In this document: positions 1 through 64,000 of the stretch, one piece after another | How the letters are laid out: each line of letters opens with the position of its first letter | Numbering within the stretch: the first letter of the stretch is position 1 | Assembly: GCA_025617745.1 (NCBI GenBank) | Contig: CM046870.1 | Coordinates: 6,573,618-6,637,617, forward strand | DNA length: 64,000 nucleotides | DNA from: Heliocidaris erythrogramma | Lineage: Eukaryota; Echinodermata; Echinoidea; Camarodonta; Echinometridae | Direction: 5' to 3' | The notes under the pieces: model-generated | The model's input: the letters and a program-made list of their open reading frames with translations, nothing else | Database searches by the model: none | Told to the model about the DNA's origin: nothing | Made by a program: the position numbers and the translations under genes

Positions 1-216
1 TCCAAAGATACATGAATGGATACTGCCAGACATTTTAAGTGGTGGGCGGTGCCCGCCAGACGCCCCCAAAGGGGGTCCAAAAATGAGCTAGATTAGCTGG
101 AAAGGAAACCCTAAGGAACCAATGGAATATTGTTCGGCAGAGTCCAAATATACACAAATGATTACTGCCAGACATTTTAAGTGGTGGGGAGTGCCTGCCA
201 GACGCCCCTAAAGTAG

Positions 217-225
<9 letters not shown>
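1..225 (-). repeat. Left copy of the ~290-bp (2 x ~145 bp) tandem repeat, inverted
   Basis: This stretch is the reverse complement of the array at 10420-11345. Shared words include GACGCCCC, CCACCACTTAAAA and GTCTGGCAG read on the minus strand. The window begins inside the repeat, so its outer limit is unknown. It is followed directly by a poly-C tract. With the right-hand array it brackets the gene at 1418-7622 symmetrically. Confidence 0.85.

Positions 226-248
<23 letters not shown>
217..248. repeat. Poly-C tract (32 C)
   Basis: An uninterrupted run of about 32 C follows the left repeat copy. It is one of many long C or G homopolymers in this window. Exact length is likely to be unreliable in any assembly. 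Confidence 0.95.
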
Positions 249-251
<3 letters not shown>

Positions 252-1417
252 CCACTTAGACATTGAGCAAGATCAATAACAAAGCAAAGCAAATAAAACG
301 ATATTAATATGCTTGTCCAGAATTCTATAACCAGGTAAATTATACTGCCATACCAGTTAGTCTGTCATTGGGAAACTCAAAATATTATTTTCATGATGAA
401 AGCACCAAGAAAATGTTTTTATCAATGAGAGAACTAGTAAAATAACATGGATCAATAGGATCAAAACCAATTTTATACTTTATTTGCAAGAGCACAAGCG
501 CCAGCTTTTGTCAAATTTGGACCAGTAGCTCTAGATCTACACAGATTTCAGATCTACAGTAGATCGTTATTCAGTGTCTGATGCCAGTTTGTGATTGTTT
601 TCTGCCAATGGACAGATGAGTTCTACCACAGCATCAGCATAAGACTTTGGTTTATGGCTGACACTGTGTAAGTTATCAACTTCATATCTATTTGCTCAGG
701 TAAAAAATTATGATTCAGAAGCTCATGGCGTCATGCTTTGTGTTTGATACTAGTATTACTATATTACAGTCCCATGTATCAAGTTTTGTGTAGGTGCATG
801 TTTACTCATTGTATTATCCTACAAACATGAAATGTATAACTTGTTTAGAAAAAGAAAGAAAACAAATAACAATAAAAACTTCTAATTTGTAAACAAATCT
901 TTCGGCATATTACTCCGAAAATGAAAAACTTCGAAAATGAAATTTGGTATGAAGTTTGGTCGACATTCTCCTGTGATAATTTTGAGGACTTGTCTTTGTA
1001 GGTTATCAAATAAGTTTGCCTTTTAAATTGGGGCCAAGATAATGCCATGGCATTGACACACTTCGACATTTTTAAGACTTACGTTAGTAAATTGGTGACT
1101 TATTAATTAATTTTATTTCTAGACTCAAGTGTCTAGCAAAGCTTGATTCTCGAATGTAGAGTCCTGGCCTATTAAATTGAGAGTTTTCACGGTTAGGGAA
1201 CCATGGTTTAGATCAAATTGTGACTTAAATCAAGACTGTTCTGCTTCAACATAATTACATGTATATACCAAATAAGCATAGGCGCACTATTTGAAATGAT
1301 TTTACATTTCTCTTCCTGACTGTACATTTCTTATACAGACGGTATTTAGTTTCCCATATAATCTGATTGTACTTTTTATGTATAATTCCAGATTGACTTG
1401 AACCATTAGCCAGAAAG
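249..1417. other. Upstream region of the transposase-like gene, no gene recognised
   Basis: No coding region was recognised. Around 880-945 there are short words of the TTCCGAAAATGAAA type, related to the arrays at 32060 and 37030. A possible splice acceptor (TTCCAG, ending at 1391) lies 26 bases before the ATG at 1418, so a noncoding 5' exon further upstream is possible but not shown. Confidence 0.4.
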
Positions 1418-1510
1418 ATGGACCCGGGAGAAGGAGTTGATACTGAAGAACAGCCTGCAGGACTCTCAGGCCAATGCTCAAATAGTTCTTCCCTTGTTGA
1501 GGATGAAAGG
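1418..1510 (+). CDS. Exon 1 of the transposase-like gene
   Basis: The ATG at 1418 opens 31 codons (MDPGEGVDTEEQPAGLSG...VEDER) and ends at a strong donor, AGG|GTAAGT, in phase 0. The matching acceptor is TTCTTGCAG ending at 4091, and the body exon begins there in phase 0, giving VEDER|GTSGSVP. The peptide is acidic and serine-rich with no recognised domain. Joining to 4092 is inferred from matching phases and good splice signals; I cannot see a transcript. If right, the gene has a 2.58-kb intron, unusual for a simple transposase but seen in some animal DNA transposons and in domesticated genes. Confidence 0.6.
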
Positions 1511-4091
1511 GTAAGTGTTTGGAAAAGCTCTTTTTCATCTATATTAACACGTTTTAAAATTGAGATGAGTTTAAAGCATTGTTTTCCCCACATTTTATTA
1601 AATCAACAAAATCAAGGTACAGCATGTATAACAATTATTAATGAGGAAAATTATGAACAAAATCAAACATGAATAAAAAAAAACACGCCCAGAATATTGC
1701 ATATAATGGTAATATGTACAGCTTACCCACCCTGTCAGAGGAAATGTTTTATTATACTAATAACATCCCAAAATTAATTATCTCCCTCTGTCAGAGGACA
1801 GTGGAAAAAGACCTGAGGCCCGTTGTTAAAATTGAAATTTATAGGAAAAATAACCCTTACATTTATATTATTCCATCATATAATAGTATTTTTAAGCATT
1901 TCGGACATAAAACATGCAATAAAAAAATGTGTGCTTGGAATTTATGAATACCGAATTTTACCATATTTTGTTTCCTAAATCGGCAACTTGAAAGTGCATT
2001 TTTGTGTGACGTCACGGGTTGCAACTCGATGGGTCGCTGACGTGTGAGATGAGAGAAGAATCCCGCATTCGCCCATACTATTATTCAAAATATTTCAATC
2101 GTATGACCAAAATCTTACATATAAATGTCCTCTATCATCCCGGAATATATTATCCCATCATCATTCTTTTTTTCTTGTTATCTGGACATTTTTGGAAGGG
2201 TGATTGGAAAGAATTATTCACTGTTTTGTCTTCCATTTTGGCCATTTGGAAATTCTACCTATTTCTACACGAATTTCATGCCGATGGCGAGGTTGAAGCT
2301 CCCTTGTTGATTTTGACTGTACAGTTCTTATCTGTTTATAATAGCTAACTTTAACCTAGAAATCAAGTCTAGATCTAAAATTCAACTGTGTAGATATCTA
2401 GACAGAACTAGTCCGGTGGCGGATCTAGCCAGATTAGACGCAATTCATTCTAGGGGCGCGCTTTGTTTGTGCCCAATGGAGCGCCCCTAGAATATATTGT
2501 GTCTTACCAGGTTAGATCCGCCACTGCTAGTCTAGTCCAGATCTAACGTTTATAGATATAGTCTAACGTTATAATGTAGAGCTATGAGTGATCTAAACTA
2601 AATGCGTTCTGACTTTTCCAGTACATTTTTCCACTCCTATTTTCCCATCCGCTGGTCTCGATGGCCCTCCATCTTCATCCATGATTTAACTCCGATTATC
2701 CATTGGGGCGACAAACAACAACAAATATAAAAGGAGGGAGTAATCAGTAATGCGGTCACCGCCTAGCTCTAACCGATATACTCGCGGATGGATCACAGTG
2801 ACCACACTGATCGCGAGTGCAAAATAATCTTCATATATTGGGAAAACCGAGTGAAAAACACTCTCTATAAGTATGAAATTTGTTCAAAATTATGTTCAAA
2901 TGAATTTAAAGTGTTTGTTTTTGGAGTCTATATAAAGACAGTTTCGTTAGTTTTGCCCCTCCAAACCTAATTTTCATTCCCTTACAGCTTCCGTTATACA
3001 TAGAGTCGGTATTTCCCAATTTGAACCCTCCCCTTTTTCATTTCTTTTTTCATGTTTATTTCAATAATTCAAAATTTTTAAAATCATAATTTAAGTACAA
3101 AGGTTTAATTAGAAGCGGGCTTAGTTATTTTGACATGTTATTGTGGTTAAATGCGGTCAGAAGATGATGGTTTGTTGACCGTTGAGTGTCGTTTTATTAC
3201 ACTGTGCATAGGATAGCTCCAGACGTGCGACTCATCCTCCAACCCGTGACGTCACTCGAAAAGGCCGTTTTTTGTAGCGATTGTATACTTCAGGGCCTGT
3301 TCACTAGGTGATTTTTTATCCCCGATATATATTTTAAAGAAGAGGGATATCATTTGAAATGCATCCCATCTTTTTTTTCTTTTTTTTTGCCTCAGAGGAT
3401 TTATTTTACATTCAAAATTTACAACTCAATATAACACTGATACATAAACGTAACAAAATTGAAATCGACTAACATATATCAATGTTACATTTTCCAATAA
3501 ACTTCAACAAATCCTACTGGAAAAGCATCTTTTCTATTCATTTAATTTACAGAAATTACATACAAAAATATATTTCAGATATGAGAATGCAAACGTTTCA
3601 TTACTTTTCATCCAAAATCTATGTGTCAAGTTTACTCTGATATATTTTGATATGAGGGACATGCTGTTACCTACAGGAGCAAAAGAATAAATGTAAATAA
3701 AGAAAAGTAACACATTTAATGAACGGTATGTATTTAAATTTGTGCGGTAATGACATCACCAAATTCCCCATTTGAATATTCATACAGATTGGTTAAGAAA
3801 TGTTTTCATAAAAGATTGAAATTAAGTTCCTTCTTTTTCTAATCCAAGAAAACAAAACTGCAGTCCTCTAAAGTCATCATTTTTCTATATATATATTTTA
3901 AAGTTAAGGAAGCTCTAAATTTGATTACTTCAGTTACAAATTACTTAAAGATAAAAATATTTTCAATTTGGCCTAATAAGTATTTGGTTATGTAAATCAT
4001 AGTTTAAATTACTCTACTTCCCAACAAGTTAACATGTTAATGCATATATCTAAATTCTATAATCAACATCTCCACTTTATTATTCTTGCAG
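1511..4091 (+). other. Intron of the transposase-like gene, repeat-bearing
   Basis: The intron is inferred from donor and acceptor signals. It carries a fold-back MITE (2416-2524). It also has a 16-bp perfect inverted repeat, GTGACGTCACGGGTTG at 2006-2021 and its complement at 3240-3255, which may mark the inner ends of a decayed 1.25-kb element. The rest is AT-rich without a recognised gene. Confidence 0.5.
2416..2524. mobile_element. Short fold-back MITE
   Basis: The ends GTGGCGGATCTAGCC and GGTTAGATCCGCCAC are near-perfect inverted repeats. An internal pair, TTCTAGGGGCGC and GCGCCCCTAGAA, makes the whole ~109 bp a long hairpin. It is flanked by similar CTAGTC words, a possible target duplication. 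It lies inside the putative intron. Its GGCGGATC end resembles the GGCGGATCCAGG family seen at 27168, 39112 and 57902. Confidence 0.7.
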
Positions 4092-7000
4092 GGTACCTCG
4101 GGATCTGTTCCAAGCTGCTACATATGCAACAAGTGTACAGAGGAGAAAAACAAGCTATTACAATTCTGCCCAAAGACATGGGCAACAGTAAAACGAGCTG
4201 CAAGTCAGCGTAAACTTTTGAAATCTGACAAATACTTTGAAGCCACACACAAGATTTTGGAAACTACTAGTCAAGACTACGACTGTTTCTATCATAGTGC
4301 TTGTCACAGGCAATTCACGGCCGTGAAAAGGTCAAAAGACGAGCACCAATCACATGAAGAACAAACTGCTAAACGCCAATGCATCAAAACAAGGCGCTGC
4401 AGCGTTATTCTTAAGTCTGATCAACAAGGTTTGCTGAAAGGAACATGCATATTTTGCGGCAAGAGCCGTAAAAAGAAGTTTGGACGAGAAGAGCCTAGGT
4501 TGAAGATTGCGACAGTTGGCGGCTGCGAAACAATATCTGATCGGGTCAGAAAATCAAACAATGAACGAATCAAAAGTCTCATTCGAAGCGGAGTTGACCT
4601 CATAGCAAAGGAGGCAGAATACCATAAGTCATGCCGAGTTGCATTCCTAAAAGAGACTGAGGATCGATGTCCCTCTGAAAGTGGTTTGAATGTTTCATCT
4701 CACAGGAAAGCCTTTGCCACTACCATTTCTCACATCAATGATGAAGTCATTGGGAGAAAGCATACCATGTTTGGTTCCGAGTTATTTGACATGTACAAGA
4801 AAGAGTACATCGGTATTGGTGGAGAGGAGACCAATATCCGCTCCTACAAAACCCAGAATTTCCTACGGAAGATTAAAGAACATTTCAGTGACAACATCGA
4901 GATAGCTCTGGCAGACCAACGAAGAGGCAATTTCATCTACAATACCGTTTTCTCTGAAGAGGAAGCAAGGGCTCGTCTTGAGCAAGATTCCATGAGATAC
5001 GAAGAGGATAGGAAATTGAAATGGGCTGCCCTACATCTCAGGTCTGAAATCTTGAAGGTTCCAAAGACAAATACACCTGCACCTGTCACAGTCCAAAACC
5101 TGAAGCAGTGTGCTGCAGAGATACCATCACAGGTAGATTTGTTTTTTAGAACTCTACTTTCTGGTATGGCACCGAGTTGCGGAGCACAGAAAGAAATGGT
5201 TGACCGAAAGGTGTGTACCATGTCATCGGATGCAATATACAACGTGACACGAGGTTCCACAAGACCTTGGAAAAACACAGTGCTTGGTCTAGGCTTGTCA
5301 TCACTTACAGGATCCAAGATAGCCCTGCAGGTTCTGAACAGATCTGGACATTGCATAAGCTACACTGAAACCAAAGGACTTGAGACTGAATTTGCCTATG
5401 CCGTTGCGGATGACGAACGTGACGCTCCAGATGGCATTAACCTTCAACCGAACTTGGCAACAGCAACTGTCTGGGATAACAATGATGCAAACGTGGAAAC
5501 CCTGGATGGAAAGGATACCTTCCATGCAACAGTTGGTCACACATACCAGAACAAGACAGAAGATGACCAGCATGGTGCAATCAAAGTATCAGCTTTTCGT
5601 GAGCAAAAGAATCGACGTAAATTTGTTGGAAATGAACAAGAGATACCACAATTTAGGAAGTCTCTCAATCGGGCAAAGTTCATCAGCACTGATGCGACAA
5701 CAAAATGCACAAGAGTACTTGAATCAACATCCCAGTCACGCGATGTCTCCGAAGATATTCAAAGATTGTTGCCTGAATTGACAGCAGTGACTGATGGAGC
5801 ACCACAAAATGAGCCTCCGGTCCCCACAACAGAATTAGATATAGGACCTTCCCCAGTACCTATCAAAGATACAAGCATGGCATCTCATTGAAAGCATCCA
5901 CGTCTGGACCATCGAGATCATCGATCATTGATCTACATGCCTGTACAAGGCTAGGCGTCCTTGACCTATATTGGTTCTTGAAGCTGCATGACGGAACATG
6001 TGGCACTCCACTTCACGCAGGGTTTATGAGCAAGTACATCAAGGATCCTTTGCCACTGCAGCGAATTTGTTACATGAACCCAATATCAGATCGCCTACAA
6101 ACAACCATGTGGTGAGAGAAACAATGGTCAGATCCCTGAACGTCGCCAAGGAAACGGGCCAAAAATATGCAGTTGTAACATATGACCTAGCAGTCGCACT
6201 GAAAGCTTATTCCATCCAAACGCTCGAGGCCCCATTGTTCGACAAACTGCTCATCATGCTTGGGAACTTTCACATAGAGCTTGCGTTTTATGGAGCCATC
6301 GGTACTTTCATAAATGAAAGTGGAATAGAATTCATCTTGACGGAGTCTGAAGTACTGGCAGAAGGATCTACGGTCGGATTTGTAAAGGGCAAGTTCTACA
6401 ACAGATGTACGCGAATCCATGAGCTTCTAGCGAACGTCCTGGAAAAGAAGTTGTATAACAAATTTCTTTGTGGTGTGAGCAAGGAAGACAGGAATTTATT
6501 CCAAGAAGTGATGTCAACCATGCCCGAGGATCCAGATCGAGTTGAAGAACATCTATCAGACCCTGTGGTCACACATCACCTACAGATGTACGATGATTAC
6601 TTCAAAGCTGTTCTTGACGGAAGTCTCGGAGAAACAGCTCAATTCTGGACAATTTACATATTCCTGATCAATCGCCTCCACAGAGAAGTTCAGAGATGCA
6701 TCAAGACCAACGATGTTGATGGTTACACACATGTGTTTCCATTATTGCTGGCTGTGTTCTTTGCCTCAACAGACCTAACTACGCCAGATGGGGAACACTA
6801 TTCCTACACAAGCTGAAGGACTCCAACTCGGTGTTCCATGAGATTCTCAAGAAGGGTGCCTTTACAATCAGAAGAACAGGAAAGAACTATAGCAGATCTG
6901 CCGTAGACCTTTCTTTGGAGCAGACGGTCAATCGTGATGCCACTTCGAGGATGAAGGGAATTGTATCATTCCGAAATTCAGAGAATGCAGTGCAAAGATG

Positions 7001-7622
7001 GGCACTTGGAATGACCCAGCGCGCGATGGCTGTCACCGAACTCAGAACGCTTGTTGGTCTGGACGTTAGTGAAACTGCATCTGCCCAATCTCGTCCATCC
7101 AGGATCCGAAGGGACCAGAAGCACATGGCAACATTGAGTGCCAAACTTGACGAAACATGCGATCCATTTTCAGATAATGCCCCGACTGCACTTGTAAATC
7201 TAGCTACCGGTCGAGCAGCTTCAAAGGAGACCACGACCTATCTTCTTGAAACTATGCAAAGGGGACAGGATGGGAGAGACAAATTCAGAGATGAATGCAA
7301 GGACAGCGATCGCTTTCTCAAACCTGTGAGACGGATAAGTGTCAAAAACTTTGCTGCTCAAAACCTAAAGAAGAAAACCAGGCTCCCATCCTCACAGAAA
7401 GCCAGAACAAACGCAGAGAGTCTTCGGGATATGTTCATTCGAATTATCATAGTCATTGCTCAGCTATTCAAGTGTGATGAAGAGACACTGGAAGAGACAC
7501 CCGATGAAGAGACACTCAAAGAGACACTCGATGAAGAGACACTCGAAACCGAAGGCGACACCCTAGATCCGTCTTCAGATGAAGCTTGGAGTGAGGTTGA
7601 CTCTGACATAGCAGACAATTAA
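4092..7622 (+). pseudogene. Transposase-like protein of an uncharacterised invertebrate family, main exon, with three frame switches
   Basis: The exon encodes about 1,170 residues in four successive frame segments. The first (to about 5880) starts with two zinc-binding-like modules: CYICNK...YHSACHRQF and CIFCGK...YHKSCRVAF, each C-x2-C...Y-H-x2-C. Then follow LGLGLSSLTGSK, GHCISYTE, VWDNNDANVETLDGKDTFHA, and after the first switches TYDLAVALKA, LGNFHIELAFYGAIG, ESGIEF, GKFYNRCTRIH, NYARWGTLF, GAFTIRR and VDLSLEQTVN. An acidic repeat (DEETLEET) forms the C terminus. I know this motif set from many unnamed invertebrate proteins; the spacing of WDNND, TYDLA and LEQTVN suggests an RNase-H-like DDE nuclease, which is inference. 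Frame changes occur near 5880, 6088 and 6776, where motifs run on in a new frame. Otherwise the frames are open, so this is a very young pseudogene or carries assembly indels. A polyadenylation signal lies at 8048. Confidence 0.75.
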
Positions 7623-8047
7623 GTGGATTTTTTCAGCATTCCACAATGAAACAAAGAGAAAGTTCATCTGGGAGTGATATCCATTTTGGCTGCCATTCAT
7701 GGTTATACAATTGCTACAGTAGGTTTTAGATAATTTGGACACGGGAGAAATATTTTCTAATAGCTTTTGGCCTTATCAGGTAGTGTATCCCAATCAATAT
7801 TGTTCAAGAATTCAGCAAAACAGTTTTCTGTTTCATGCAAGTCAGACAGATATCATGCAAATCACATCTTCAGATCCTCCAAGTTCTTTAAAATGATAAC
7901 ATATATCCCTTGGGAGTGCCAAAATTAATTTGCGACAGTGCCCTCGGGCTCTTTTGTTGTTGATGTAGGATTGTCATATGAGAAATACTTTTCATATCGT
8001 TATTGCTTTATATATTGTCATGGCAATGTGATTTCCTTTGCATTTTC

Positions 8048-8053
8048 AATAAA
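8048..8053 (+). promoter_or_regulatory. Polyadenylation signal AATAAA
   Basis: AATAAA lies 426 bases after the stop at 7622, in otherwise AT-rich 3' flank, and before the tandem repeat begins. It is the first canonical signal after the stop, so it is the likely 3' end of the transposase-like gene. Confidence 0.5.
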
Positions 8054-8392
8054 CATATGGACATATATGCAAAATATAAGGCGTATGGTTTGAGTCCAAG
8101 TGGTTGCCACATATTGTGTCCGTCACATTTGACCTGAAAATTTATCAAGAGTTTAATATTTGTTACATTTCTCATGGGTCTAGTACCACTAATAGACTTT
8201 CAAAATAATGATGTATTTTGAAACTATATCAAAACAGATATTTGATTGAAAGCACACATAATATGTCACTGAAAGTAATTATAAGGTAACATGTAAAGAT
8301 TACTCCAGGACGTGTACACAGTTTAACATATATAGAAAACAAGCTGCTGAAAACTGCTCAGCCGATAATAGAGAGCCAGTGGAGTCAAATTG

Positions 8393-8486
8393 AGTCAAAA
8401 GGGGCCTGAGCTTTCGATGAAATGGTAGTCAATTTGCCTCTTGAAGAAGATCCTGCTAGGATCGAAAGCTCAGGCCCCTTTTGACT
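8393..8486. repeat. Hairpin with 26-bp perfect arms, hammerhead-like core
   Basis: Arms 8393-8418 and 8461-8486 are exact complements (AGTCAAAAGGGGCCTGAGC...). Between them is TTGAAGA, a small stem GATCC-TGCTA-GGATC, then GAAA. This order resembles a hammerhead ribozyme core (CTGANGA, stem II, GAAA), but the first C is T and I see no good stem I. Such motifs are known in Penelope-like elements and retrozymes; that origin is inference. Confidence 0.6.
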
Positions 8487-9779
8487 TAGTTAAACATATG
8501 TAAAACATGACGTTGTGGGATACATGAAATTGTAGTAAAGACATTTCCAATATAGTGTGTCAGTCAGTTTACTTAAGACTTTGTGAAAGAAAGTTATTTC
8601 ATCACCAAGTCGAGTGATACATGAAAAGTCGTTCAGACATTTTCAAGATACATAATGTAGCATTCGGTTAGTACTTTGTAATGTTAAACAGTTGTGTCTG
8701 TTTTATGTATCATGTCAGTATAAGGGTTATATATGGTTTGAGTCCAAATGGCTGTCACATATTTGTCAAGAGTTTAATATTTGTTACATTTTGTGTTGGT
8801 CTAATACCACCGAGAGACTTTCAAAATAATGATTTATTTTAAAAACTATCAAAAGGGATATTTTATTGAAAGCACATCATAGTGTATTATGTCGCTGGAT
8901 TCTGGATGCCCATAAAGTAGTTACAAGGTAATATTACTCCATTACATGTACAAAGGTTATGACAAATTTGAGAATGTAGTTATTTCATTACAAAATTGTG
9001 GGATACATGAAATTGTAGTGAAGATATTTTCAAGATAGTGTGCCAGTCGGCATACTTGTGACTTTGTGAAAGACAGTAATTTCATCACCAAGTTGTGTGA
9101 TACATGGAATCGATGTGAAGATATTTTCAAGCTAGTTTGCCAGTTAGCATAGTATTACAACTTTGGAAAGTCAGTTACTTCATCACCAAGTTGAGTGTTA
9201 AATGAAATATCATTAAGACATTTTCAAGATAGCATTCGATTAGTACTATATAATGTAACAAAATAATGTCTGATATTTCATGTCATGAGTAAAAGGTTTA
9301 TGGTTTGAGTCGAAGGGGTTGCCACATATTGTGTCCGCCGAATTTGACCAGAACATTTGTCAGTAGTTTAATATTTGTTACATTTCGCATGGGTCTATCA
9401 ACACTGAGAAACTTTCAAAATAATGATGTATTTTGGAACTATCAAAACAGATATTTGAATGAATGCACACGTAATATTTCACTGTATTCTGTACATGCCC
9501 CGAAAGTACTTATAAGGTAAGTGTGAAAATTACTCCTGGAAGTGTACATAGTTTAACATATGTAAAACATTAAATTTAGTTATTTCATCAGGCAGTTGAA
9601 ACTGTAGTAAAGGCATTTTCAAGATAGTGTGCTAGTCACCATACTTTAAGACTTAGGTGAAAGACAGTTATTTCATCACCAAGCTGTGTGATACATGGAA
9701 TCGTTGTGAGGACATTTTCAAAATGTGCTAGTTAGCAAAGTTACAATTTTGGAAAGACAGTACTGTTATTTCATTACTA

Positions 9780-10032
9780 AAGCCCTTTTCACAATTGTTG
9801 CACGACCACTTTGGGTCCGCTTGCGACCTATTTTTCCGGCGGTCGCACGTCCGATCGCTTGCTGTCGCACGACCAGTCGCAACCGTTGTGGTGGTCGCAT
9901 CTGAGCTTCCAACATGCATTTGTATACGGTCCTGCGATCAGTCGCGCAACGGTCGCATCGAATTGCCCAGTCGTACGACCGATTTTAGTCAAGTGGTCGC
10001 ATGTGGTCGTGCAACAATTGTGAAGGGGGCTT
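9780..10032. mobile_element. MITE of 253 bp with ~26-bp TIRs
   Basis: The ends AAGCCCTTTTCACAATTGTT and its near-complement AACAATTGTGAAGGGGGCTT face each other, followed inward by GCACGACCA and TGGTCGTGC. TA flanks both sides, a TA target duplication typical of Tc1/mariner-related MITEs. The interior has many GGTCGCA/TGCGACC words. It is inserted in copy 3 of the 600-bp repeat. Confidence 0.85.
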
Positions 10033-10419
10033 TAGTTGTGTGATACGTGAAATATGGTTGAGACATTTTCAAGATAGCGTTCGCTTGGTACTTACTATGT
10101 AATGTTTAAAATATGGTGTAAGTTTGATGTATCATGTCGTGAGTTTGTAGTAAAACAAACATGAATGCTTGATCACAGTCGTTTTTCTCCACTATACATA
10201 AAAGCCGCGGCCACGGCATGCGAAGTATTAAATTCAGAGTTCCTGCGATTTTTACTTGTCATTCCTAAAGGGAGACTGTTCTTTAATATATCAATTACAA
10301 CAACTGCTGTACAGTATATATAAATGTAAGTTGTTTTTTTTTTCAAAGATCTTCGTGAGGATTTTTTTTTAAATCATTGTAATATGTGTGAAATTAATAT
10401 TACATGTATATCCGTTTAC

Positions 10420-11345
10420 ATGGGGACTATGGTAAATCTTTTCATACGGGTTTCATAGGGTTTCCTTTCGAGCTAATTTAGCTTATTTTTGGACCCCCTT
10501 TGGGGGCGTCTGGCGGGCACCGCCCACCACTTAAAATGTCTGGCAGTATCCATTCATGTATCTTGGGACTATAGCGCATCTTTTCATATGGGTTTCATAG
10601 GGTTTCCTTTGCAGCTAATCTAGCTCATTATTTTGGGGTGCGGTACTTTAGGGGCGTCTGGCAGGCACTCCCCACCACTTAAAACGTCTGGCAGTGATCA
10701 TTTGTGTATATTTGGACTCTGCCGAACAATATCCCATTGGTTCCTTAGGGTTTCCTTTCCAGCTAATCTAGCTCATTTTTGGACCCCCTTTGGGGGCGTC
10801 TGGCGGGCACCGCCCACCACTTAAAATGTCTGGCAGTATCCATTCATGTATCTTGGGACTATAGCGCATCTTTTCATATGGGTTTCATAGGGTTTCCTTT
10901 GCAGCTAATCTAGCTCATTATTTTGGGGTGGGGTACTTTAGGGGCGTCTGGCAGGCACTCCCCACCACTTAAAACGTCTGGCAGTGATCATTTGTGTATA
11001 TTTGGACTCTGCCGAACAATATCCCATGGGTTCCTTAGGGTTTCCTTTCCAGCTAATCTAGCTCATTTTTGGACCCCCTTTGGGGCGTCTGGCGGGCACC
11101 GCCCACCACTTAAAATGTCTGGCAGTATCCATTCATGTATCTTGGGACAATGGCGCATCTTTTCATATGGGTTCCATAGGGTTTCCTTTCCAGCTAATCT
11201 AGCTAATTTTTTTGACCACTTTGACCACTCCCCCTGGCCACACCCACCACAGGGAACATGCCAGACGACCGTTTCATTATATGGGAATATGTACTCTATA
11301 TACCCATACACATGAAAATTGGTTTCCTTTCCAGCTAGGTTGACC
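10420..11345 (+). repeat. Right tandem array, ~290-bp unit made of two ~145-bp halves
   Basis: About three units follow one another at 290-bp spacing. Each half carries TAGGGTTTCCTTTC, CAGCTAATCTAGCTCATT, GGGGCGTCTGGC and CCACCACTTAAAA. The two halves differ in fixed ways (CATTCATGTATCTTGGGAC against TTTGTGTATATTTGGACTC). Open frames here are repeat artefacts. The array decays after 11200. It is the inverted partner of 1-225. Confidence 0.9.
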
Positions 11346-11384
11346 CCCCTGGCACCTGCTCTATAAGGCAGTTATAACCGGGTC

Positions 11385-33197: not shown

Positions 33198-34474
33198 TGT
33201 CTTGTTTACTCAGGGTAGCCTCATCAGTATTTTATACTGTTCTCCCTGAGGGCCCTGCAATCAAATTATTACCATGGCTTTAGCCAAGCGACCATGATAA
33301 GGCACTCAAGCATTCAAAGAATTGCATCCTACCGGGTATACCCATTTACTTTACCTGGGTGGAGTGAGGCAAATGGAGATTAATGTCTTGCCAAAGAACA
33401 GTGCCGTGGCTGGGAATCGAACCCCGCACTTTGTGATCTGCAGTCTGGTGACTTATGCACTAGACCACAACACCTCTATTGAGATATGATATAGTGATTT
33501 TGTTTTTTTGTCTGCCTAGATGTAAATTCAACCCTGGAGAGCACCAATCAGAGTACGACACCAACCCAAGAATTGTCAGCAGAGAGAGCACTAGAAGATG
33601 ATGAGAGGCACCTCGTTAAACTAGAAGCAGATATAGTGGTGAAAAATGAAGCTGAACTAGAAACGCAATTTGATTCTTCTCAAAGCGAAAGCTTCTTGAT
33701 GGAGTATCGCTGTGGTCAGGTACCACGTCACGAGGTTGGTTTTGAAGGACAAAGTGTCCCCGAAAGTGAGGAACTGGATCCTACAAGTTCTCACCACAAG
33801 CATGGAGGGATGGATGCACAAGCAGTAGTGGATCGCGTTGAAGAAAAGAGTGAAATGACGACACATGGACAAAGTGAACAATCTCTCCTTAACCCTGCCA
33901 AAACAAAGCTCTCCAAAACTCCGAAAAACCAGACAGGAGGAAAGTCCTATCAATGTTCCTTCTGTGACAGGACGTTCTCCCAAAGCTGTAACCTTACAAT
34001 CCATAAGAGGAGACATACAGGGGACAAACCTTATCAATGTTCATTTTGTAAGAAAAGGTTCTACTCCAAGAGTTATCTATCAGTACATAGAAGAACCCAC
34101 ACAGGAGAACGACCATATAAGTGTTCCTTCTGCAGCAGAGGCTTCGCCCAGTGGAGCAATCTCTCCCAACACCTGACGACGCATACCGGAAGAAACTCTA
34201 CCAGTGTTCGATATGTCACAAGTCATTTTCTCAAAGCGGTATCCTCAACCGACATATGCGGACCCATTCTGGCGAAAGGCCGTATCGTTGTTCTGTCTGT
34301 GACAAACAATTTTCCCTCGAGTATAATCTTTCGAGGCATATGCCAATTCATACAGGAGAAAAGCCTTACAAATGTTCTCTTTGTAGCAAGGAGTTTACAC
34401 ACATGAGCAGTCTATCCGTTCATAGAAAGACCCACAGAAATGGAAAGGCCACCACTAAAAATGGCAGAGTGTAA
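31695..34474 (+). CDS. C2H2 zinc-finger protein, two exons visible, one frame switch
   Basis: Exon A (31695-31943) follows a TTATTATAG acceptor, is open in phase 2 (LAYNIKEEIPTMKAIKKEV...), and ends CAAG|GTAATG. Exon B begins at 33520 after TGCCTAG, giving Q|DVNSTLESTN. Exon A is very acidic (LEEDLGDDDHRDEPED). Exon B has an acidic linker, then six C2H2 fingers of C-x2-C-x12-H-x3-H form with TGEKP-like linkers: YQCSFCDRTF, YQCSFCKKRF, YKCSFCSRGF, YQCSICHKSF, YRCSVCDKQF, YKCSLCSKEF. It probably is a nuclear DNA-binding regulator; target unknown. Between finger 3 and finger 4 (near 34187) the frame changes by one base, so either the assembly lost a base or the gene is a young pseudogene. An upstream exon with the start codon is expected but was not identified. 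The intron holds repeats at 32060 and 33160. Confidence 0.8.
32020..32745. repeat. Array of TTCCGAA-type words, ~250-bp unit, about 2.7 copies
   Basis: CCGAAGGTTTGTAATTTGCA recurs at about 32070, 32332 and 32571. Between lie CATAATTCCGAAAATGAAA and its complement TTTCATTTTCAGAATTGCGA many times, so the array is self-complementary. A related array lies at 37030-37325 and a decayed one at 50380-50590. It lies in the zinc-finger gene intron. Confidence 0.8.
33160..33472 (-). mobile_element. tRNA-derived SINE with (ATT)n tail
   Basis: On the minus strand it starts GGTGTTGTGGTCTAGTGCAT (A-box-like), has GGGGTTCGATTCCCAGCC (B box), then TACCCGGTAGGATGCAA, and ends in (ATT)n at 33163-33196. It is related to 21908-22268 and is inserted in the zinc-finger intron about 50 bases before the exon. 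Confidence 0.8.
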
Positions 34475-35423
34475 CACTATTTCACATTGAAATGAAATAG
34501 CATGATAAAAATATAAGTTTCCCCGTCCATTTTAACACTTTTGTCATTCAGTTTCATCAATTTCACTTCAGTTTAAAGTTGATTGATTTATTTGTCATTC
34601 AAGTTGGTCAATGGTCTGTCAATTTCAGTTCTTGCCCATTCCTTTTCGTCAGATTCCATTTGAATGTGTCTCATCTTACACTCGCTACAGAATGTAAATG
34701 ATCGAATTCGTCTTTGTGCAATCGATTTGGAAAGACTTTCATCGGTAAATTCGAATGACACTTGGACGAAAATTGATTGCAGTTGACGAAATCGATTCAT
34801 GCAATCTGGCAGATTATAAAAAGATGTACAATTGAATTAATAAAATGCCTTGATTCTTTGATGTCGATGTCTGATGCCGCCAAAGTAAACGGGAAAGGTT
34901 TAGAGATGTTTTGACGTTTGCATGTTTACGATGCGCAGTTATATGTATTACTATCGTGAAAGATGGCTCTGGGAAAAACAGCCAACCAAAGCAGTGGGCA
35001 CACGCGGTCAGTCAAGAAATTGTCATCGCAGTTCTGGTATTTTGGCACTAATTATGTTCCCTTGAACCTTGTTATATCATTCATGTGCACTTTTTCGAAC
35101 TTACATTTGGGTCTGCGAAAACTAATTATCATTATAACAGAATATCCTCCATTGTACGTAGGCCCTATCCATGGTTATGCAATAAAACGGAATTTGATTT
35201 GTTTCCTCGTTTGGAAGAATGTTTTCGGAGAGCGCATAATAATATTTGTCATGTTTGTTGTGGCGGCATCGAAGCTCGCTTCAAAGAGAAGCAGTATGTT
35301 TGAACCTTCTTGGGATGACGAAATTGATTTGACTTTGACGTAATTGGATGCAAAGTTCGAAAATAAATTACCAAAACAAAATTGACTGGATAACACACAG
35401 CTATGGTCTTATTTACACTTACG
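34475..35423. other. 3' flank of the zinc-finger gene
   Basis: AATAAA at 34839-34844 is a candidate polyadenylation signal for the zinc-finger gene. A 126-codon open frame at 34963-35343 (MALGKTANQSSGHTRSVKK...) is not recognised and has no splice or family support. Nothing else was seen. Confidence 0.4.
34839..34844 (+). promoter_or_regulatory. Polyadenylation signal AATAAA
   Basis: The first canonical AATAAA after the stop at 34474, 365 bases downstream, within AT-rich sequence. Confidence 0.5.
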
Positions 35424-63330: not shown

Positions 63331-63520
63331 TTCACCCTGACAATAAGTTGGTTTTAATAAATGCAGAGAAACAAAAGAAACATATCAGTGAAGGTTTGGC
63401 GAAAATCCGTTAAAGAATTATGGAGTTTTTAATTTGTAAACAAATCTTTAGGCATTTTACTCCCAGTGTTAAAGATCGTATGCTCGATCTGTAATGAAAA
63501 ACACAAGTCAGAAAAAATTG

Positions 63521-63592
63521 GAACCAGCGGGATTCGAACCTGTCATCTACTGCTTGCCGGGCAGCGACTTAACCACCAGGCTATTCTGGTTC
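63521..63592 (-). ncRNA. tRNA-like element, copy 1 (probably SINE head, not a functional tRNA)
   Basis: On the minus strand: GAACCAG...CTGGTTC form a perfect 7-bp stem; GCCTGGTGGTTAAGTCGC is A-box/D-arm-like; CTGC-CCGGCAA-GCAG looks like an anticodon arm (GGC) but has C where U33 should be; AGGTTCGAATCC is a B box. The T-stem pairs poorly. A run of T follows at the 3' side (TTTTTT), as a Pol III terminator. Best read as a tRNA-derived SINE or tRNA relic. Confidence 0.55.
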
Positions 63593-63815
63593 ACGGCCAA
63601 GTCACACTGAAACTAGAATCAAATACCCAAGATCCTCTTCTTTCTGACTCATTAATATTCATTTTTAACGGTCCGCCGTAGACAATGGTTAGTAAACGAA
63701 GAAGCTTGACTGGGGAAGAATTTTTAATTTGTAAACAAATCTTTAGGCATTTTACTCCCAGTGTTAAAGATCGTATGCTCGATCTGTAATGAAAAACACA
63801 AGTCAGAAAAAATTG

Positions 63816-63887
63816 GAACCAGCGGGATTCGAACCTGTCATCTACTGCTTGCCGGGCAGCGACTTAACCACCAGGCTATTCTGGTTC
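63816..63887 (-). ncRNA. tRNA-like element, copy 2
   Basis: The same 72 bases as copy 1, displaced by 295 bases through the tandem duplication, with the same B box and following T-run. Confidence 0.55.
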
Positions 63888-64000
63888 ACGGCCAAGTCAC
63901 ACTGAAACTAGAATCAAATACCCAAGATCCTCTTCTTTCTGACTCATTAATATTCATTTTTAACGGTCCGCCGTAGACAATGGTTAGTAAACGAAGAAGC

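Follow-up and report, generated by a model that had tools for sequence, protein, structure and literature searches.

A damaged copy of a recently mobile DNA transposon in Heliocidaris erythrogramma, with a probable DDE/D-type transposase gene related to DUF6589 proteins

The window, a stretch of 64,000 nucleotides from the sea urchin Heliocidaris erythrogramma (C18:6573618-6637617), contains a damaged and shortened copy of a DNA transposon that was recently mobile. The gene inside this copy is very probably a transposase gene, belonging to a DNA transposon of the cut-and-paste, DDE/D type. We read it as such because it lies between terminal inverted repeats (TIRs), because eight of nine insertions of the family are flanked by 3-bp target-site duplications (TSDs), and because near-identical copies are dispersed in the genome. 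A preliminary description of the window had proposed from the letters alone that the gene encodes a transposase, and the same three observations bear this out.

Elements of this kind are already known. What is useful is that the motif set of the gene and the Pfam family DUF6589 are tied to real element ends, which helps to label a family to which Pfam assigns no function. Such proteins account for many 'uncharacterized' gene models in invertebrates. With the motif set tied to element ends, a 3-bp TSD and a D/D/E triad, these gene models are likely to be transposases and not host genes, and both gene annotation and repeat masking would benefit.

Element ends and dispersed copies

The boundaries of the element were placed by comparing sister copies in the same assembly (1.064 Gb, 26 contigs), to which all own-genome searches below refer. 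The preliminary description had confined the feature to 1418-7622. This is too small, since the element begins 502 nt to the left of the window and ends at position 11363 (Table 1) and since about 1.8 kb of it has been lost at 7462|7463. Its inverted repeats begin with TAGA, are long and contain tandem arrays. The tips read TAGACCGGGTGCC (TAAACC.. in C11) and TAGAGCAGGTGCC, the tandem arrays come next to them, and the outer part of the left repeat was read in L075:3499-4000. Closer to the gene, a comparison of 260-1417 with 7623-10420 for exact inverted repeats of at least 11 nt gave one, with 1.67 expected.

When the outermost 182 bp of the left end were searched against the genome, 40 of 501 candidates were scored, giving at least 40 matches of 98-100% identity. 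Eight inverted pairs, with members 6.7-12.1 kb apart, account for 16 of the 40; the other 24 have no partner among the matches listed. The eight pairs and the C11 copy, whose right end was taken from L081, gave nine complete insertions in which target sites could be compared. An exact 3-bp duplication is present in eight of them (TGT, TAA, TAT, TTA, AGA, TAA, TAA and TAT). When the boundaries were shifted by one to three bases in either direction, 1 of 54 trials gave a match of at least 3 bp, and the ends are therefore correctly placed. Copies that are so nearly identical indicate recent transposition.

One of the pairs, L101 (C1:45587974-45594696), has ends that match at 95-97%, while its middle of about 4.7 kb is unlike the window element and its longest frame has 186 codons. 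It looks like a copy that has kept the ends only and has been moved in trans. Apart from L101 and the window's own pair, six more end pairs were seen, 7.3-12.1 kb apart.

The preliminary description had suggested that copies be counted and conserved flanking ends be sought. A DNA search with 1.5 kb of the gene as query returned six matches, which represent five copies: the window itself (C18), C11 and C17 at 99% identity, C10:31M at 83%, and C10:48M at 98% in a match covering 113 bp of the query. C11 and the window are collinear between the left array and 10456, and onwards to 11349, except for the 1.8 kb or so missing from the window at 7462|7463. Over 4101-7460, the window differs from C11 by 19 substitutions and five length differences, and over 4901-7460 from C17 by 9 substitutions and, again, five length differences. 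The intron (98-99% identical) and the acidic tail of the gene are present in C11, C17 and C10:48M in the parts that were read. None of the five copies appears undamaged. In C17, 4070-4889 is missing and the match starts no earlier than 920 in the stretch read. C10:48M is without 3366-5885; its match ends at 7647, and the stretches read contain no right end. C11 carries two stop codons in the region that matches protein piece P0001, and C10:31M carries five.

The wider family is much larger. Protein piece P0003, which covers the core, was searched at E<=0.001; with 141 of 224 candidates scored, at least 142 matches came up (the rows are exon pieces, not copies), many of them in frames open for 700-1612 aa, and piece P0001 gave 68. 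Among the P0003 matches, 28 rows of equal score belong to one relative subfamily, and 17 of these lie in frames of exactly 1567 codons. In the translation of one such open frame, L100, the zinc modules, the core, the second domain and a cysteine-rich tail are all held in a single frame. This subfamily looks like a young and possibly live transposon family, and its seventeen uninterrupted frames offer a testable, possibly live animal transposon. Scans of viral contigs with three pieces of the window, two motif patterns and alignment A2 found no relative. A motif-pattern scan of genome contigs gave eight matches, none of which is a relative by tblastn (best E value 0.11).

The coding region and its damage

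The motif set in the preliminary description stood up to inspection: both zinc modules and the series from WDNND..ETLDGKDTFH, which begins at 5472, to LEQTVN are in the window in the order given, with YNRCTRIH between LGNFH and NYARW. The phase-matched upstream exon that it had proposed also agrees with what we see. Exon 1 joins exon 2 at 4092, directly after an acceptor, TTCTTGCAG, and the junction is of phase 0/0; inspection of the exon 2 frame upstream of the zinc modules revealed no in-frame ATG. A frame of 616 aa is far above chance: among 100 first-order Markov sequences built to resemble the window, the frames reached 221 aa at most. As far as can be judged from sequence, the two-exon model appears sound. 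The Cys/His spacing is identical in the two zinc modules. A duplication of the module sequence was considered and rejected: 1326 of 2000 shuffles reach the score of aligning one module with the other, so it is the spacing alone that repeats. Within the intron, a 1.2-kb stretch is flanked by 31-nt inverted repeats of 84% identity (1991-2021 and 3240-3270) and a short hairpin with 44-nt arms lies at 2416-2524; these are possibly small nested elements.

The preliminary description had pointed to acidic residues in WDNND, TYDLA and LEQTVN, and these are conserved. In an alignment of eight hand-chosen family members, the D of WDNxD is found in 8/8 rows, the D of T[YF]D in 7/8, and the E of EQ in all seven rows that reach it. 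Between the second D and the last E there is a GxxH motif whose G and H are kept in 8/8 rows. Three acidic residues are thus conserved in order, as in DDE/D transposases, and they are candidates for a catalytic role. A second, C-terminal domain, lost from the window copy, carries HEE-DT and DTDV motifs that are invariant in three divergent members (the C17 copy, a C8 copy and L100). We take these motifs to be reminiscent of XPG/FEN nucleases, which searches of Pfam and PDB and a FEN1 profile comparison did not confirm.

If these assignments are correct, an intact family protein would hold two zinc-finger-like modules, a D/D/E core and the C-terminal second domain. The zinc modules would bind the repeat ends. 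The core, which probably folds like RNase H and has a long stretch inserted ahead of the E, would cut and join DNA. This would leave gaps of three bases at the target, and their filling would create the 3-bp duplication. As for the second domain, it is probably a metal-dependent nuclease and may aid in processing ends or intermediates, and copies that consist of ends only would be moved in trans.

Several results weigh against a DDE/D transposase. The C4 insertion, one of nine, has no duplication. In L052, N takes the place of the second D. The window pieces matched no transposase family in Pfam. The preliminary description had also inferred an RNase-H-like nuclease, and here the acidic triad is conserved, and attempts to recognise the fold gave nothing usable: a single-sequence AlphaFold 2 model of P0003 is nearly all helix and unusable, with a predicted local distance difference test (pLDDT) score of 41 and a predicted template modelling (pTM) score of 0.33, and profile A2 gave no PDB match at E<=10. 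The second domain had best E values of 0.17 in Pfam and 0.59 in PDB, and its profile scored 12.0 against archaeal FEN1, a score reached by 20 of 100 column shuffles. Sequence searches of PDB reached a best E value of 0.12.

The motifs had been described as lying in one long exon. This has to be given up, because the frame of exon 2 breaks by one base at each of three sites (near 5887, 6086 and 6763), which spreads its motifs across four pieces in three reading frames. C11 and C17 are one base longer than the window copy at all three sites, and their frames stay open across them; C10:48M, which covers the second and third only, is likewise one base longer there. Tiny introns in place of frame breaks were rejected, as the sister copies differ at these sites by one base only. 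The stretch of about 1.8 kb that is missing from the window is for the most part covered by two open frames in C17, the first of which encodes the second conserved domain with its nuclease-like motifs. Since the second domain is lost and the frame is broken three times, the window copy, degraded and internally deleted, is most likely inactive itself. Its ends could still be mobilised by proteins of other copies.

It could be argued that the three breaks are errors of the assembly and that the window holds a transposase gene with an internal deletion only. This would be compatible with the transposase reading and would alter the state of the window copy alone. Each break amounts to a single missing base, and the window also holds a C2H2 zinc-finger gene (from 33498 on) with a break of the same kind and well-formed fingers on both sides of it. 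However, the sister copies come from the same assembly and are open at these sites, which excludes a general fault of the assembly there, and the loss of about 1.8 kb is left unexplained by single-base errors. We regard assembly error as possible, with the odds on the side of real frame breaks.

Family placement and alternatives

The link to DUF6589 (PF20231) comes through relatives of the window gene. The window pieces themselves had no match to this model at E<=1, and for the core pieces of the window a limit of E<=10 brought up no match either. Seven proteins of the family, two of them second-domain pieces, were scanned against Pfam, and four matched DUF6589 below the cut-off (L016, E 2.4e-4; L020, 1.6e-4; L064, 1.6e-3; L072, 4.4e-6); a sister copy reached 20.4 bits, the cut-off being 27. 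When the DUF6589 model was searched against the genome, 34 places scored above the cut-off, and none did in 14 control genomes. Two of the frames, L052 (33.6 bits) and C10:48353939 (41.3 bits), were found both by this model and by P0003, and DUF6589 is therefore related to the family of the window gene. DUF6589, which Pfam annotates as a family of unknown function, is probably a transposase domain. DUF6589 frames in this genome reach 1808 codons. A further Pfam match, GSKIP_dom to zinc module 1, scored 22.4 bits (cut-off 20.9) with the module as an isolated piece and 18.1 with the whole piece, and looks like chance. Searches of one paper library for DUF6589, for YNRCTRIH and for Academ combined with XPG found no paper.

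Among named superfamilies, we favour the nuclease-bearing lineage of Academ (AcademX) as the best filing, with some reserve and by comparison with descriptions of Academ only. A nuclease, of XPG type, encoded together with the transposase is one criterion of AcademX. The filing is made because a 3-bp duplication and a fused second domain fit. Academ is counted among the DDD/E superfamilies in PMC9587614, and PMC10045372 gives AcademX duplications of 3 or 4 bp and describes two Academ lineages that carry a helicase and a nuclease. The window family would thus share with AcademX the DDD/E type, the 3-bp TSD and a second, enzyme-like domain within the same long protein. It differs in size and in its ends: the window element has 11.9 kb, whereas curated Academ elements of bivalves average 5565 bp according to PMC10294476, which also describes Academ as abundant in bivalves, and its inverted repeats are very long and bear tandem repeats.

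Another possibility is a separate transposase superfamily of DUF6589 type, related to Academ yet distinct from it and without a published name. The preliminary description had spoken of an unnamed family, and this holds in so far as Pfam has the relatives solely as DUF6589, for which, as said, there is neither a function in Pfam nor a paper among those searched. In addition, the second domain is not tied to XPG/FEN, and G-x-x-H stands in the place of C/D-x-x-H. On the other side, the features do fit a superfamily that has a name, for the 3-bp TSD, the second enzyme-like domain and the richness in invertebrates all match Academ as portrayed in PMC10045372 and PMC10294476. A separate superfamily appears to us to have perhaps half the credence of the Academ filing. 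A fuller version, in which the family and DUF6589 together make up an unnamed superfamily marked by GxxH, by twin C2-HC modules with 55-residue spacing, by an undescribed fused nuclease-like domain and by tandem-array ends that mobilise large unrelated interiors, is more doubtful still.

Membership in the P, hAT, MuDR, Kolobok or Dada superfamilies is very improbable. Their elements, P-element/THAP9 included, have an N-terminal zinc module and a long insertion before the last E, and the zinc module, the late E and the conserved H after the second D of the window family are reminiscent of them; the order D..D..H..E is shared. According to PMC10045372 and PMC9587614, however, these superfamilies share a C/DxxH motif between the second D and the last E, whereas the window family has GxxH in 8/8 rows, and the Pfam models of those superfamilies were unmatched. 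The target duplication also differs, being TTAA in Kolobok (PMC9587614) and 3 bp here.

Foldback-type elements such as Galileo have long inverted ends that consist partly of tandem arrays. The long tandem-array ends of the window family and the unrelated interior of L101 are reminiscent of them.

The weakest alternative is a domesticated transposase that serves the host, the loss of the nuclease domain having made it a safe DNA-binding protein: hosts often reuse zinc-finger and transposase parts, the intron has good splice sites, a long intron and an acidic tail (for which the preliminary description thought that the gene may serve the host) are features of host genes, and the deletion at 7462|7463 keeps the frame of the tail, so that the core is fused to it, but the sister copies have intron and tail too, the element ends and TSD are intact, the three frame breaks of the window copy are absent from its sisters, and in place of a single copy with an intact frame and no element ends we find several copies that are 99% identical, so that domestication is rejected as scarcely credible.

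Features of the element and other observations in the window

Table 1. Positions in the window of the transposon copy, its gene and its damage
Feature	Positions	Strand	Remarks
DNA transposon copy, 11,865 bp in total	1-11363 in window; left end 502 nt left of base 1 (C18:6573116)	gene on +	delimited by C11 homology and TIR search
Left TIR, inner part (tandem array)	1-225	.	97% complementary to 10635-10858
First coding exon (predicted)	1418-1510	+	ATG start, 31 codons, then GTAAGT donor
Intron, phase 0 (predicted)	1511-4091	+	parts read match sister copies C11, C17, C10:48M
Main coding exon	4092-7622	+	four frame pieces, stop at end
Zinc-binding-like module 1	4116-4304	+	C-x2-C-x55-H-x2-C; residues 9-71 of exon-2 frame
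Zinc-binding-like module 2	4446-4634	+	C-x2-C-x55-H-x2-C; residues 119-181 of exon-2 frame
WDNND	5472-5486	+	candidate first catalytic D at 5475-5477; D in 8/8 family rows
Frame break 1 (approximate)	5887-5888	+	one base shorter than C11, C17
Frame break 2 (approximate)	6086-6093	+	one base shorter than C11, C17, C10:48M
TYDLAVALKA	6178-6207	+	candidate second catalytic D at 6184-6186; D in 7/8 rows, N in L052
LGNFH	6259-6273	+	conserved G-x-x-H; G, H in 8/8 rows
Frame break 3 (approximate)	6763-6776	+	one base shorter than C11, C17, C10:48M
NYARW	6777-6791	+	
LEQTVN	6915-6932	+	candidate catalytic E at 6918-6920; E in 7/7 covering rows
Internal deletion junction	7462-7463	+	about 1.8 kb, mostly coding, in C11, C17, C10:48M, absent from window copy
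27-nt repeats encoding acidic tail (DEETLEET..)	7476-7556	+	tail also in C17 open reading frame
Right TIR: tandem array (unit of about 142-148 nt) and outer unique part	10423-11363	.	tip TAGAGCAGGTGCCAG.. read inwards
3-bp TSD, TAA	11364-11366	.	partner adjoins left end of element, outside window

Inside the transposon and 3' of the gene, degenerate direct repeats with a spacing of about 480-620 nt occupy 8075-10100. Rfam and tRNA scans found nothing. At the far end of the window, a 295-nt tandem repeat (63426-64000, about two copies, 100% identity) runs past the last base, and a short part of it resembles 874-916. On the minus strand, 57187-57792 matches Pfam RVT_1 (E 2.7e-7); this reverse transcriptase fragment is probably the remnant of a retrotransposon.

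The C2H2 zinc-finger gene already mentioned lies at 33498-34600 on the plus strand. After its third finger, well-formed fingers continue in another frame. The break is in the same direction as those of the transposase gene, and it may be either an assembly error or recent decay.

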